Below are positions 6,391-33,648 of a stretch of 33,648 nucleotides of DNA, piece by piece (the stretch's first letter is position 1; the number at the start of each line of letters is the position of its first letter). The DNA lies in assembly GCA_016928235.1 (NCBI GenBank), contig JAFGLD010000328.1:1-33648 (forward strand), in the 5' to 3' direction. The translations under genes and the position numbers were made by a program. Under the pieces are notes generated by a model. That model had not been told where the DNA came from and ran no database searches. It was given only the letters and a program-made list of their open reading frames with translations. The DNA comes from Anaerolineae bacterium (GTDB lineage: Bacteria > Chloroflexota > Anaerolineae > Aggregatilineales > UBA3940).

Positions 6391-6418
6391 GAATCGACCC
6401 TCCACTGGTTGGTGATAG

Positions 6419-6466
6419 TAGACTTTATCGGCAACAGTGTGACTCAGTCATCTTCGATAAAGTCTA
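6419..6466. repeat. MITE family 1, copy B (48 bp, internally deleted)
   Basis: The ends are perfect inverted repeats, TAGACTTTATCG and CGATAAAGTCTA, each 12 bases with TA at the outer edge. Next to the left end it carries GCAACAG, matching GCAATAG of copy C, and before the right end GACTCAGTCATCTT, matching AACTCAGTGATTTT of copy C. The central 33 or so bases of copy C are missing, so this is a deletion derivative. It lies 28 bases upstream of the start of the HTH-receiver gene. Confidence 0.8.
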
Positions 6467-7107
6467 TTGGCATCATCACGGCTATCTTTAGCTTGCAGCG
6501 CATCATCATGGAATGTCTGTTAGCACGACTTTGTCGTGACGTCTGTTTGCAGTTTACCACATCTCCATCTGCTATTTACTTGCTTGTGTTGGCATGATGC
6601 CACAATGTCATGTCCCTGTCACCTTCCTGGCAAAATCATGTAGACGATGGCAGGGTTGGTCATTTATGATAAAGACAGTCCCACTCTGGGTAAGATTTGT
6701 TTCAACATCGCAAGACTGTTTATTCTCATATTCTGACTTTTTTGCTCGATTAAGTTTGTGATAGTACTTGGGATTATTCCATCTATCTTGTTCCCCATCC
6801 CCAAAATCCCCTCCCTGCCAGCTGAAACAGGGAGGGGAGGGATGAGGGGAAGCGATTTCACCCGATACTCCGGTTTGCTGCCGCGACCTACACAGAGGTG
6901 CCGAGGCCCTGTGAAACCCAATGATTTCCAAAACGCGAAACTATGATATGATGAGAAGTTGTGGGGGAAGCCTTACCACAAAAAGGCTACAAGTCATTTT
7001 CTTCAAAAACTTTCCAGCATCACCACAGCAATTATCATTTGTCATTGACTGATAAGCCAATTGTCTGGCGGCAAAAGCCAAATTTGCTTGTTTATGCCGG
7101 AGAAAGA
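6467..7107. other. Gene-free stretch with one REP-like hairpin
   Basis: No frame here looks coding: the short frames on both strands have no recognisable domain and are rich in rare combinations. The only clear structure is an inverted repeat, CCCCTCCCTG at 6808-6817 and CAGGGAGGGG at 6828-6837, a 10-bp perfect stem with a 10-base loop and no T-run. It resembles the G-rich dispersed hairpins common in this kind of genome. Confidence 0.5.
6808..6837. repeat. REP-like G/C-rich hairpin
   Basis: Perfect 10-bp inverted repeat (CCCCTCCCTG / CAGGGAGGGG) around a 10-base loop. No poly-T follows on either strand, so an intrinsic terminator is unlikely; a dispersed palindromic repeat is the better reading. 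Confidence 0.6.
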
Positions 7108-7234
7108 TATCTTCTCAATCATTAATGGAGCGCCCACCAAGACACCAGGTTTTTTGCGTCTGACTTATTGTTTTCGGTGAGACAAAAATCCGGGTTCTTT
7201 CGTCTCGACATGTCCCCGGTTTGTTGAGAAGATA
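7108..7234. repeat. MITE family 2, copy 1 (127 bp)
   Basis: The left end is TATCTTCTCAATCATT and the right end TTTGTTGAGAAGATA; the outer 11 bases (TATCTTCTCAA) are a perfect inverted repeat. The interior is non-coding. It lies 136 bases upstream of the sugar-binding protein gene. It shares its ends with the copies at 10828, 11092 and 30169 and with the decayed insertion sequence at 22953-23988. Confidence 0.75.
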
Positions 7235-7370
7235 CCGTGAAAGGGGGTGAGGGCAACAGGGAAAAAGAGGATTTATGGGCGGCCTTATAGAGGCTGGAAA
7301 CATCATGACAACATCGGATTGTCAATTTGGATGTGAAATCCACCACATATTTGCAGAGGAGAAGTAGAAA

Positions 7371-10827: not shown

Positions 10828-10951
10828 TATCTTCTCAATATCTTGGGGTAGTTCTTGGTTTTTTGACTGTCGACCTGTGATTTGCGCCTAAAAACTGATC
10901 CCTGCTCACCAAGAATTAGCTTGAAGTTACCCCCGGATTATTGAGAAGATA
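10828..10951. repeat. MITE family 2, copy 2 (124 bp)
   Basis: Ends are TATCTTCTCAATA and TATTGAGAAGATA, a perfect 13-base inverted repeat. The right half, read on the minus strand, contains GGGTAACTTCAA, then ATTCTTGGTGA, then ATCAGTTTTTAG, and this aligns with the copy at 30169. It lies between the ends of the sugar ABC operon and the flavodiiron gene. Confidence 0.8.
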
Positions 10952-10997
10952 TGCTGGCACCGTGGGGGTAAGGTCAAACAGCGCTCCTTATACACGC

Positions 10998-11091: not shown

Positions 11092-11192
11092 TATCTTTTC
11101 AATCATTCGAGGAACAATGTCTCTGTCACGACTTTTTTACGCATAAAAAGGTCTTGAAGAATGTGACTCTCCCCCTTTTTATTGAGAAGATA
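11092..11192. repeat. MITE family 2, copy 3 (101 bp)
   Basis: Left end TATCTTTTCAATCATT differs by one base from the family end; right end TATTGAGAAGATA is exact. The left end with its CATT extension resembles copy 1 (7108). The interior is shorter than in the other copies and non-coding. It lies 140 bases from copy 2. Confidence 0.7.
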
Positions 11193-11375
11193 CTTTAAAA
11201 ACTTGATTATCGAGTAACAACGAGCAGCTTATCTTCTGAACAGTGACTCCGATTCTAGCAGTTTGCCAAACTTAAAATGTCGGATTGTTAAGCCTCGATC
11301 TGCTGGTCACATTGTCCATAGCGCAAACACCGATCCGGATAACACTGCCGGCTGCATTCCGGCGCTGCGTATTCT

Positions 11376-22918: not shown

Positions 22919-22952
22919 TTTTCTATGCATTCACCACTGGGCACTTTTCAGG

Positions 22953-23988
22953 TACCTTCTCAATAAAACGGGGTAAGTCAAGAACAATTCCAAGACCAGC
23001 CCAGGTTGAGTTGTTTAGCGGCTTGAGTGACGAGAGAGTCCGGGCATGGGATCTGATTCGTTTGGCGGACGCGGTCATGGGCATAGGTGTAAAAGCTGAT
23101 ATCCAGTTGTTTGGAGGTAGCAGCCAGGGTCATAAAGGTATCCCAGGCGCGAACACCATCCGAGGTGCGGGGGCCAAAGCTGACATTTCGTTTTCGAACA
23201 CGCCGTCGAGCTCTCGATTTGGCGGGATTGTTACGCAAAGGCAATTCGGGATATTGCAAGGCGAGGAGCAGTCTTTCCTTTTTAGCCTGGGTCTTGGCAA
23301 TACGTTTATCGAGATCATCGTAACCGGTACGAGTAGAGAATAGGCGGTCGAACGCTTCCTCGCTGAGTGTTCAGACCAGGCAATTGGTCATCCAGCTAGG
23401 TCAGAAAGGTGGCCTCATCCTGGTCTTGCTCGCTGCACCCGCTTCGCAGAATGGAACAATTATCTTGCAACAACTTGTCAGTCTCCAGATAAGCCATCGC
23501 TTCCTGATTTAATCGAAAAGACCGTTCTCGCCCGTTGCGTAGCACATCCAGTACTGCCAGGCGATTTTTGTTGGGGAGCGTGTGATAAGCCGTATACACC
23601 GGGTTGCAGATCGCGTGACAATGCTGATTTTGCCCATTCACTCGCGTCTGAGTGTCATTGATGTGCTGCCAGGGGCTGCTGCGTAAGCCTGCTTCGCAAA
23701 CAGCTTCTTTCTCGGCGTGAAAGATCTCTTGATCCTTAATCAATAGGTTTGAGACTGCCCTTGCCGATATAGGGATACCCACATTGGCCAAGAATTCGAT
23801 GATCTTTGGCTCGCTTGTGTTCATCCCATCATACATCGTTATGACCAATGTCTTATCCCAGGTCCGAACTGCCCCTCATACCCTGCCGGCATCTCTCCCA
23901 GGTAGGTTTGCCGCGTCGACGCCGAATAGTATTTTTTCCTTCCCTTTCTTTGTCTTGTGCTGTGCTTTTCCCCTGTTTATTGAGAATA
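22953..23988 (-). mobile_element. Decayed insertion sequence sharing ends with MITE family 2
   Basis: The left end begins TACCTTCTCAATAAA and continues to GGGG; the right end, read inwards on the minus strand, begins TATTCTCAATAAA and continues to GGGG. They are imperfect inverted repeats and both carry the TTCTCAAT core of family 2 ends. TA sits at both outer edges. Inside, on the minus strand, is a broken transposase reading frame that fills nearly all of the element. Total length is just over 1 kb, shorter than expected, with an apparent internal deletion. The IS family is not certain. Confidence 0.7.
22978..23960 (-). pseudogene. Transposase remnant (DDE-type, IS66-like C-terminal block)
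   Basis: Read on the minus strand. Coding similarity is broken at least three times: a frameshift near 23855 between a PAGYEGQFGPG segment and TMYDGMNTSEPKIIEFL, an in-frame TAG at about 23393-23395 after DEATFLT, and another frameshift near 23350-23370 before EAFDRLFSTRTGYDDLDKR. The C-terminal part (LRNNPAKSRARRRVRKR, then SFGPRTSDGVRAWDTF and TLAATSKQLDISFYTY) resembles the NNxAE...R...G block of IS66-like transposases, with Lys in the position of the usual acidic residue. The N-terminal DNA-binding region appears deleted: only a RRRRGKPT-like piece is left near the right end. The element cannot encode an active enzyme. Family assignment is an inference. Confidence 0.7.
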
Positions 23989-25186: not shown

Positions 25187-25294
25187 GGCGTGTCGATCAC
25201 GCCCTATCACTGCCATGTTCGTCACCAGCGGTTTTTTTACCTGTTTACCTTTTGCGACCAGGTGACAACTTTTCTGGAGAACTATATTAGACAT

Positions 25295-25375
25295 TAGACT
25301 TTATCGGCAATAGGCGTATTATGCATAAAAACCGGCTTATTTTATGCTTAACTCAGTGATTTTCGATAAAGTCTA
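25295..25375. repeat. MITE family 1, copy C (81 bp, full length)
   Basis: Ends TAGACTTTATCG and CGATAAAGTCTA are perfect inverted repeats with TA at the edges. The inside carries a second palindrome, GCATAAAA and TTTTATGC around ACCGGCTTA, so the strand can fold into a double hairpin. It aligns over its full length with copy A in reverse orientation, and copy B is a deleted version. Confidence 0.82.
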
Positions 25376-25457
25376 ATGATTGAGGCTATCCTCCATAGGT
25401 GTCAATTGAAGTGAGATATCACTGGGACACTGTCGGCTTGTAGATCATTGAAGCGTA

Positions 25458-30044: not shown

Positions 30045-30168
30045 GCTCCGATCACCTCACTTGTCATGGATTTATCGTTCCTGATGATGCCATCCGGATA
30101 CAAACAGCCTGCCGATCAGCCCATCAACTGTACCACACGCAACTTCCAAGACAACATAAAAAGAGACA

Positions 30169-30222
30169 TATCTTCTCAATAATCCGGAGGGGTAACTTCA
30201 ATTCTTGGTGATCAGTTTTCAG
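30169..30222. repeat. MITE family 2, truncated copy 4
   Basis: It starts TATCTTCTCAATAATCCGG, then GGGGTAACTTCAA, ATTCTTGGTGA and ATCAGTTTTCAG. This matches the end of copy 2 (10828-10951, reverse orientation) with small indels. The other terminal repeat is not found, so this copy is one-sided. It runs into a segment bounded by GATCAGTTTTCAG and CTGAGAACTGATC. Confidence 0.7.
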
Positions 30223-30930: not shown

Positions 30931-31992
30931 TTATGAGCGAGCCTCGATCACGCTCTCCACGTCACCGGCAACTTGAGCCGGCAATGTTGGGGCTTCAGCC
31001 AGTGGCAGGTGGAGAGCTACTTTGCCACGCCGCAGGTAGATCCACAGTATCGTCAGGATGACACCTAATGCCATTGCACCGACACCTAACAACCCTGCCT
31101 CTGGGCCGAAAGCACCTCCTGTCCATAGGTCAGGGCCGCCCTGTTCGATACCAATAAACGTCGTCTGATTCGACGAGATGCCGCTGACCGGAAAGCCAAA
31201 TACATTGCCCTGGAAGAAATTCCAGCTGATGTGCAGCCCGATCGGGATGGCCAGTTCACCGGTCAGGAGGTAGCCTACCGCTAAAAGTATCCCAGCCAGA
31301 AAGATATTGAACGTGCTGATAGCCGTCGCGTTGGGATTACCGAGATGCAACAACCCAAAAATCGCCGATGACAGCAATGTAGCGATCACAATCGCCCAGC
31401 GCGGGCCGAGAAGTTTCCAGTTAAATCCCTCGGCCATATTTGTGAGCTGGTAACCCCGGCTAAATAACTCTTCATTGATGCCAACCAGAATAAATGTAAA
31501 CAATGCGCCCAGGATTGCTATCGCAAAAGCATTGCCTTGTGGTGCCACAAATGTCCTGGTGATCGTTATCCAGCCGGTGACCACCTCCATGCCGAAGATG
31601 ATGGCCATCAGGATTGCCCCCAGGAGCAAGCCGAAGCCAAAGTCGATCCACCAATCTTTGTTAAGATGAAGTCCAAAGTCTACGAATTTGCGCCTGTCCA
31701 GGAATCGCCCAGCCAGCCAGACAGCCCCTACAGTAACTACAAATTGGGCAATCTCGGCGGCAACCAATATCCAGCTTTGCTCCATTAACTGCTCGCTGAT
31801 GAGCATCGGATTAGACAATTGTTCGGCGGTCAGCATCCCGGTTGCGAAACCTATGATCACTGCCGCGACACCAATAATCGCCTGAATGGTGATGAGCAGA
31901 GTGAACCACACCACACCCCAGATTAGCAACCGCCATAGCGCGCGAAGCCGACGCTGTTCGGGATTCCAAAAAATATTGGCAATAAAGGCCAT
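30931..31992 (-). CDS. CPBP-family intramembrane glutamic protease
   Basis: A 353-residue membrane protein with about eight helices. All family motifs are present: Glu174-Glu175 and Arg179 in NEELFSRGY, His216 in FGLLHLGNPN, and His254 with Asn258 in GLHISWNFFQG. These are the active site of type II CAAX prenyl endopeptidase-like (Rce1/Abi) enzymes, which cleave substrates in the membrane. The N-terminal region has a long first pair of helices and a FWNPEQRRLRALWRL start typical of the Chloroflexota/cyanobacterial subfamily. AAGGAGA precedes the ATG at 31992. The start is 54 bases from a family 3 MITE. The substrate is unknown. This is a complete protein, in contrast to the degenerate one at 26203. 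Confidence 0.92.
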   Translation of the reverse strand: MAFIANIFWNPEQRRLRALWRLLIWGVVWFTLLITIQAIIGVAAVIIGFATGMLTAEQLSNPMLISEQLMEQSWILVAAEIAQFVVTVGAVWLAGRFLDRRKFVDFGLHLNKDWWIDFGFGLLLGAILMAIIFGMEVVTGWITITRTFVAPQGNAFAIAILGALFTFILVGINEELFSRGYQLTNMAEGFNWKLLGPRWAIVIATLLSSAIFGLLHLGNPNATAISTFNIFLAGILLAVGYLLTGELAIPIGLHISWNFFQGNVFGFPVSGISSNQTTFIGIEQGGPDLWTGGAFGPEAGLLGVGAMALGVILTILWIYLRRGKVALHLPLAEAPTLPAQVAGDVESVIEARS

Positions 31993-32046
31993 TTCGATGT
32001 CTCCTTATGTAATGGACAGGTGCGTCGCCTGCCCCAACCAATCATC

Positions 32047-32131
32047 TAAGGAATGAGAATTTATTAACTTGCCCAAGCACAGTCCTAATTGCAGGCTCAG
32101 GACGAGAAAGTTATTTCATCCCCATTCCTAA
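32047..32131. repeat. MITE family 3, copy 1 (about 85 bp)
   Basis: Starts TAAGGAATGAGAATTTATTA and ends in TTATTTCATCCCCATTCCTAA, which are inverted repeats with a few mismatches. The interior contains TTGCAGGCT. It aligns over its full length, in opposite orientation, with the copy at 33382-33468. It lies 54 bases upstream of the CPBP protease gene. Confidence 0.75.
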
Positions 32132-32236
32132 GTATATCATTGCCCCATCCCCACCTGTACCAGACGTCGATAAGTCTATCTTGTTGTCAGAACTTGCGCA
32201 TCCTGAATTGGCATCAAAAAGAGATGTTTTAGGGAA

Positions 32237-32256
32237 GGGCGATCCACAGATCGCCC
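32237..32256. repeat. REP-like hairpin GGGCGATC/GATCGCCC
   Basis: A perfect 8-bp stem with loop CACA, near the 3' end of the transglutaminase-like gene. It is of the same design as the hairpins at 12603 and 25163. Confidence 0.6.
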
Positions 32257-32279
32257 CCCTTGTATCGATGTTTGTCTGG

Positions 32280-33173
32280 TCAAACCTCATTGGCCAGTGT
32301 AATGGTAGTTTGGACGCCTCCGGGCCAACTGGTGATGACGGGCGGAACACGCAGTCTGTCATCGTTCTCATAGGTCCCTCGGATTTCGTCAAATGCTGTA
32401 TCGCCGGCAGTGGACAGCGCGGCAGCTCGATCCAGCAAGGCCATCTCTTCTTCGGTCAGGTCGTCGAATGATTGATCGAGCAGCCCCCAGCAATCCCAGG
32501 GCAACAGCTCAACCTTGTTGAGCGCGGCAAAGTCGCGCATCAGATCGCCGCAGACAAACCACAATCCCCACATGTCGAGGATGCCAAAGGTGTTGGGGTC
32601 GGCTTCACCGGCGCGACAGCGTCGCCAGGCTTCACCGCCGACCAGGAACTTGTCCGGTGGCATATCGGATGGGTCGAAGTCGAGGTGAAAGAACTCGCGC
32701 TGTCTCTCATCAATCTGCGCATCGAACATCACCCAGCGATTCTGTTCGGCATTCCAGACCTCACACACCCAGTGATCGAGGTAGCGGCCCGGCTCAAAGT
32801 AGGTAGCAAAACCACATCGGGCGCGGGCCGGGATCCCCTGATGCCGCAGCAGGGCGACCGTCATCGTCGTAAAGTCTCGGCAGTTGCTTATCACCCGCTT
32901 GATGGGGGAACGTGCCATCACGATTGGGCTGTTATCGATTTCTATTGCCCGCGCCAATATGCGTCTCGCCGAGCGGATTTGAAGCTCCTGCTTGCGCTCT
33001 TCGGGTACTTCTACATCATAGAGGTGGGTCAAGAAAGTATGTAACAGGAGCCCTTGGATAACTTTACACAGCGATGGGACATCCAATGGTACATCTTTCA
33101 GTCGATCGGCCTGGTCTTTGAGATCGGTCATCAAGCCGATCTGGGCATAATACGGCAGCAGTTCCGTGGTCAT
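32280..33173 (-). CDS. Transglutaminase-like superfamily protein
   Basis: A 297-residue soluble protein. The transglutaminase/protease-like catalytic triad is visible: Cys98 in ISNCRDFTTMTVALLR, followed by HQGIPARARCGFATYF, then His134 in YLDHWVCEVW and Asp151 in WVMFDAQID. Proteins of this superfamily are peptidases, peptide N-glycanases or transamidases; no family-specific domain was seen after residue 160, where an unknown region of about 135 residues follows. AAGGAGA precedes the ATG at 33173. It stands alone on its strand between two copies of a mobile repeat in opposite orientation. The substrate is unknown. Confidence 0.85.
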   Translation of the reverse strand: MTTELLPYYAQIGLMTDLKDQADRLKDVPLDVPSLCKVIQGLLLHTFLTHLYDVEVPEERKQELQIRSARRILARAIEIDNSPIVMARSPIKRVISNCRDFTTMTVALLRHQGIPARARCGFATYFEPGRYLDHWVCEVWNAEQNRWVMFDAQIDERQREFFHLDFDPSDMPPDKFLVGGEAWRRCRAGEADPNTFGILDMWGLWFVCGDLMRDFAALNKVELLPWDCWGLLDQSFDDLTEEEMALLDRAAALSTAGDTAFDEIRGTYENDDRLRVPPVITSWPGGVQTTITLANEV

Positions 33174-33381
33174 GTTTCTATCTCCTTATGAACTTGTCAG
33201 ATTAGCGGTTGTCGATAGTATGGATGAGTCGTTCACGAGATCTCGGATCAGGGAAGATTATAAACTGTTGGAGATAGGAAAGAATGGGAAGATTGTTGGA
33301 TTTTCAGGAAGGACGCGCTACAATACCTTCACCAATCTGGGAATTTGCTGGGCTGCGCCGCCGCATGGCGGCTTTTTGTTG
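33174..33381. other. Non-coding upstream region of the transglutaminase gene
   Basis: This region has no credible gene; the plus-strand frame from 33166 is antisense-type and without motif. It contains a hairpin with T-run at 33357-33377 and ends in a family 3 MITE. Confidence 0.4.
33357..33377 (+). terminator. Terminator-like hairpin without an obvious gene
   Basis: GCCGCC (33357-33362) and GGCGGC (33367-33372) form a stem around GCAT, followed by five T. No plus-strand gene ends just before it, so it might be a relic or a repeat. Confidence 0.35.
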
Positions 33382-33468
33382 TTAAGGAATGGGGATTAAA
33401 CAACTTTCCCCGCAAAGCCTGCAATAAGGGCTTAATGGATGGGTAAGTTAATAAATTCTCATTCCTAA
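33382..33468. repeat. MITE family 3, copy 2 (about 87 bp)
   Basis: It starts TTAAGGAATGGGGATTAAAC and ends TAAGTTAATAAATTCTCATT plus CCTAA; the ends are inverted repeats. Its reverse complement aligns with copy 1 (32047-32131), including the inner TTGCAGGCT. The two copies flank the transglutaminase gene in opposite orientation, so they also form a long inverted repeat of over 1.4 kb separation. Confidence 0.75.
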
Positions 33469-33612
33469 AGGGGCTCAGGTATAGATCATAGCCGGCCGCT
33501 TATACTTGCCTTTCACCAGCGCCGTGCTTGTGATACAATGAGGCGGCGCTAATGCTTGAACCATAACTGTCAACTTAAGGTCATTTGCCATTTGGATTGA
33601 TGGAAAGCAGAT

Positions 33613-33648
33613 TTGGCAAGCCGAGAAAAAGATCGGGATGTTTTTGAA
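33613..33648 (+). CDS. Possible gene start at the window edge
   Basis: A TTG at 33613 with GGAAAG 7 bases upstream opens a frame MASREKDRDVFE that runs off the window. Only twelve residues are visible, so nothing can be said of the product. Confidence 0.25.
   Translation, partial: MASREKDRDVFE

Follow-up and report, generated by a model that had tools for sequence, protein, structure and literature searches.

Two inverted repeats around a transglutaminase-like gene

The window, by which we mean the whole stretch of 33,648 nucleotides analysed from an Anaerolineae bacterium, carries at 32280-33173 on the minus strand a gene for a transglutaminase-like protein of 297 aa (PF01841 core, E=9.7e-09). 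A short repeat lies on either side of this gene, at 32047-32131 and 33382-33468, and alignment over the whole length confirms the opposite orientation that had been predicted for the two: with one copy inverted they score 100, where the best of 1000 shuffles reached 19, and their arms are 96%, 92% and 88% identical. Both cores take the form GGAATG...CATTCC. The 79-bp core of copy 1, GGAATGAG...CATTCC, occupies 32050-32128 on the plus strand, between the target-site duplications TAA on its left (32047-32049) and TAA on its right (32129-32131), and falls between the stop codon of the transglutaminase-like gene and the start of a CAAX-protease gene, both of which are encoded on the minus strand. 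Copy 2, inverted with respect to copy 1, has an 80-bp core on the minus strand at 33386-33465, and its target-site duplications, also TAA (TTA on the minus strand), lie at 33383-33385 on the left and 33466-33468 on the right.

Each copy is an imperfect palindrome, which bears out the imperfect terminal repeats claimed earlier for each of them. The predicted hairpins are strong, with z=-5.0 for the minus strand of copy 1 and z=-4.2 for the plus strand of copy 2. At about 80 bp, without a transposase gene and with terminal inverted repeats at their ends, the window copies have the general make-up of MITEs. Searching 31000-33648 against Rfam at E<=1 returned a single match, at chance level and outside both repeats.

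We also note that the non-coding interval upstream of the transglutaminase-like gene, 33250-33380, is well conserved in the congener G003 and ends in a terminator-like hairpin on the plus strand (33357-33372). Its folding energy is not unusual (z=0.6) and it has no Rfam match; it is a possible small RNA gene.

A dispersed family with three-base target duplications

The two window copies belong to a repeat family found at about 79 dispersed places in the source genome, a tally compiled by hand from similarity searches and an end-pattern search combined, which takes in truncated copies and three insertion sequence ends; such wide dispersal is likewise typical of MITEs. Similarity searches of the genome gave at least 41 matches with one window copy and at least 40 with the other, and a pattern for one end of the repeat hit 67 sites where the reversed control pattern hit none. 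Most of the single-ended matches, first suspected of marking long elements, are shorter, decayed or nested MITEs. A consensus typed from the copies found 26 matches (of 29 candidates scored) in the congener G003; the seven remaining family genomes had no match at E<=0.01. Copy 2 shares 99% identity with the copy at G000:C297:174-261 over 88 bases, and near-identical sequences of this kind at different places point to past activity of the family.

The sequences immediately flanking the copies are not random. Among 74 copies, drawn mainly from the source genome and genomes of the same genus, the triplets on the two sides of the copy are identical in 45, against a mean of 18.9 and a maximum of 30 in shuffles, while matches of 4 bp or more occur in none of the 74. 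TNA is found on both flanks in 53 copies, 44 of which have the same middle base on the two sides. Such agreement is characteristic of a 3-bp target-site duplication, here of the form TNA, and a duplication of constant length is a further property of MITEs. An exact 3-bp duplication is missing from about 40% of the copies, presumably because they have decayed or their ends were mis-set. The two window copies each have a private TAA/TAA pair, read on the plus strand, and independent insertion of the two is therefore most likely.

These flanks also bear on whether the repeats might instead be palindromes of the REP/BIME type, kept for a role of RNA or DNA structure, for example in stabilising mRNA 3' ends or in termination. 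The strong hairpins (z=-5.0 and z=-4.2) and a nearly always intergenic placement, including that of copy 1 downstream of a stop codon, would fit such a role: the centre of the copy falls inside an open reading frame of at least 150 aa in 6 of 74 copies, compared with 73% of points chosen at random within the loci concerned. However, the hairpin is a consequence of the terminal repeats, and the intergenic bias is explicable by selection against insertions in genes. Target duplications with a constant length of 3 bp would be unexpected for REPs, and the ends of the repeats are common to ISAzo13-family elements. The unit described for REPs in the part of the literature consulted is a palindrome of 20-40 bp with a conserved terminal tag (PMC3733652), which differs in size from the repeats of about 85 bp seen here. 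We consider a REP/BIME origin highly improbable.

Other repeats accompany the family. A second palindromic repeat (TAGACTTTATCGG...CGATAAAGTCTA), probably another MITE family, is present in the window at 1558-1613, 6414-6469 and 25286-25378, and a further copy of it directly follows a MITE at locus L076. A third dispersed repeat (CCCCGGATTATTGAGAAGATAT and variants) occurs in both orientations at 7214-7242, 10930-10959, 11172-11200, 22945-22973 and 30167-30190. In addition, the MITE copy at L073 and L109 (G000:C103) contains another palindrome in its middle (TGTAACTATTCAG...CTGAATAGTTACA), apparently a nested insertion.

Resemblance to ISAzo13-family insertion sequences

Three contigs of the source genome (C13, C94 and C99) end 80-90 bases into an element that starts with TNA-GGAATGAGCATTAAATAACTTTCCC, as would be expected if a multi-copy element had interrupted the assembly. 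On the opposite strand, the last codons of this broken element read VFDDYLPDWNYQAIPLVANGKVI followed by a stop, and resemble the C-terminus of ISAzo13 transposases. Another genome of the class contains a complete relative with similar ends, at L184 (about positions 187-1536). The 406-aa product of this relative ends in VFDDVLPQWNYRALPKGTVI before the stop, comparable to the VFDDYLPDWNYQAIPLVANGKVI of the source genome, and is an ISAzo13-family transposase by both PF07592 (E=3.8e-102) and NF033519 (E=7e-135; 450 bits, cut-off 200). This complete element has an imperfect duplication of its own, with TAA as its left flank and TTA as its right. A further ISAzo13 element, on contig C30 of G003, differs in its outermost bases (GGATCCGTAAAA...) and has apparent TAA flanks, read from the sequence.

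The MITE arms match the insertion sequence end of the source genome at 21-22 of 25 bases (21/25 for the left arm of copy 1, counted by eye). Ends shared with an autonomous element, another hallmark of MITEs, are thus present, with the element of the source genome known only in part. The window copies share both terminal sequence and TNA-type flanks with ISAzo13-family insertion sequences (NF033519, PF07592), and differ from them in being about 80 bp long and in having no transposase gene. On these grounds an ISAzo13-type MITE is the most fitting description of the repeat family. The parent in the source genome is represented solely by the three broken ends and 23 codons, and no PF07592 or ISAzo13 transposase gene was found in the assembled genome; mobilisation of the MITE by an ISAzo13 transposase is for this reason something that we only infer.

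A parent from another DDE family that duplicates 3 bp, such as the IS1031-type IS5 elements, could in principle give similar flanks. IS1031 makes TNA target duplications, and the source genome has three matches to the PF01609 transposase domain. Against this, the ends that match those of the MITE belong to ISAzo13-family elements. The three PF01609 genes were checked, and no convincing MITE-like ends lie beside them. Judged from these PF01609 genes, a parent from another DDE family of this kind has, in our estimate, a very small chance of being correct.

Two further observations concern the elements themselves. The ISAzo13 element on contig C30 of G003 lies directly beside a MITE copy (L201, G003:C30:1-1800), and the reading frame of its transposase is interrupted close to seven consecutive A, by a frameshift mutation or through programmed frameshifting. 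Elsewhere in the class, the genomes G124, G141, G385 and G277 also contain short elements with nearly identical ends, at loci L178, L179, L180, L182, L185, L186 and L189, and some of them are clearly palindromic. These suggest a wider distribution of ISAzo13-type MITEs.

Origin of the inverted pair

The original prediction took the repeats to be mobile, with terminal inverted repeats, and took the pair to form a small composite transposon that can move or invert the gene between them; the first part of this reading stands and the second is not supported. As in composite transposons, two inverted copies surround a gene, and both the inverted orientation and the long matching arms would suit a unit in which the copies jointly move the gene with its leader or reverse their orientation. 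A composite transposon, however, is expected to have one outer target duplication and none private to its arms, whereas each window copy has its own TAA duplication, and the arms do not carry a transposase. This argument is strong though not absolute, as arms that inserted first, followed by later movement of the unit, could leave the same pattern.

Comparison with the congener bears on the same question. Relatives of the transglutaminase-like protein are present in G003 (71% amino acid identity) and in G005 (55%); other relatives, at 28-52% identity, come from records labelled Chloroflexi, Anaerolineae, Proteobacteria, Actinobacteria and others. DNA similarity between the window and G003 covers the gene and its leader and ends at 33383, the edge of copy 2. 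Beyond copy 2, the segment 33487-33556 again aligns to G003 in the same orientation, with a score of 46 against a shuffled maximum of 26. In G003 the gene, the leader and the outer flank of copy 2 thus follow one another in the same order and orientation, without a recognisable copy 2, at a site that has diverged and is not a base-exact empty site. The supposed unit is therefore not absent from relatives as a whole on this side, and the proposed inversion of the gene finds no support, the gene of G003 having the same orientation and being joined to the outer flank of copy 2. The situation on the copy 2 side comes close to that named beforehand as refuting the composite reading, namely conservation of the gene and its orientation in relatives that lack both repeats. 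On the copy 1 side the gene order in G003 differs, with the CAAX-protease gene on another contig, which would be compatible with movement of the unit; the short flanks of copy 1 gave no significant alignment to G003.

Chance also predicts pairs this close. With 79 places distributed at random over 5.35 Mb, ignoring contig ends, 1.5 pairs would be expected to lie no more than 1350 bp apart; 4 were seen, and half of such chance pairs would be inverted. No special cause is needed for the arrangement, with mild local clustering of copies being possible. Given the separate target duplications, the conserved orientation and the flank across copy 2 that is conserved in the congener, a composite transposon or invertible segment is not supported and seems to us very unlikely.

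The two repeats are, with high probability, independent insertions of an ISAzo13-type MITE of about 85 bp on either side of a bystander gene. The similarity of the MITE ends to those of an ISAzo13-family insertion sequence probably reflects descent from such an element. An ISAzo13-family transposase whose gene lies elsewhere would recognise ends of about 25 bp (roughly GGAATGAGNATTNAATAACTTNCCC) and insert the MITE at TNA, whereby these 3 bp would be duplicated. Chance would have placed two of the approximately 79 copies on either side of one gene, in opposite orientation and with 1.3 kb between them, and we infer that the pair has no function.

Bacterial MITEs derived from insertion sequences include the Correia elements, RUP and ERIC. 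Like these, the present family is short, palindromic, high in copy number and intergenic, shares its ends with an insertion sequence and duplicates its target; it differs from them in the family of its parent insertion sequence and in a 3-bp TNA duplication in place of TA. A literature search, under the terms tried, found no paper that links ISAzo13 to MITEs; one paper uses both words in separate contexts. The family may thus be undescribed so far, though a known kind of thing. We would tentatively entertain the broader proposal that these are the first ISAzo13-derived MITEs to be described, that they have relatives across several families of the class, and that ISAzo13 transposases widely amplify short palindromes.

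In what is otherwise routine genome annotation, these findings account for the inverted pair without any special device. They also connect the ISAzo13 family with a high-copy repeat from a little-studied genus, and suggest that the family's target in this group is a 3-bp TNA site.
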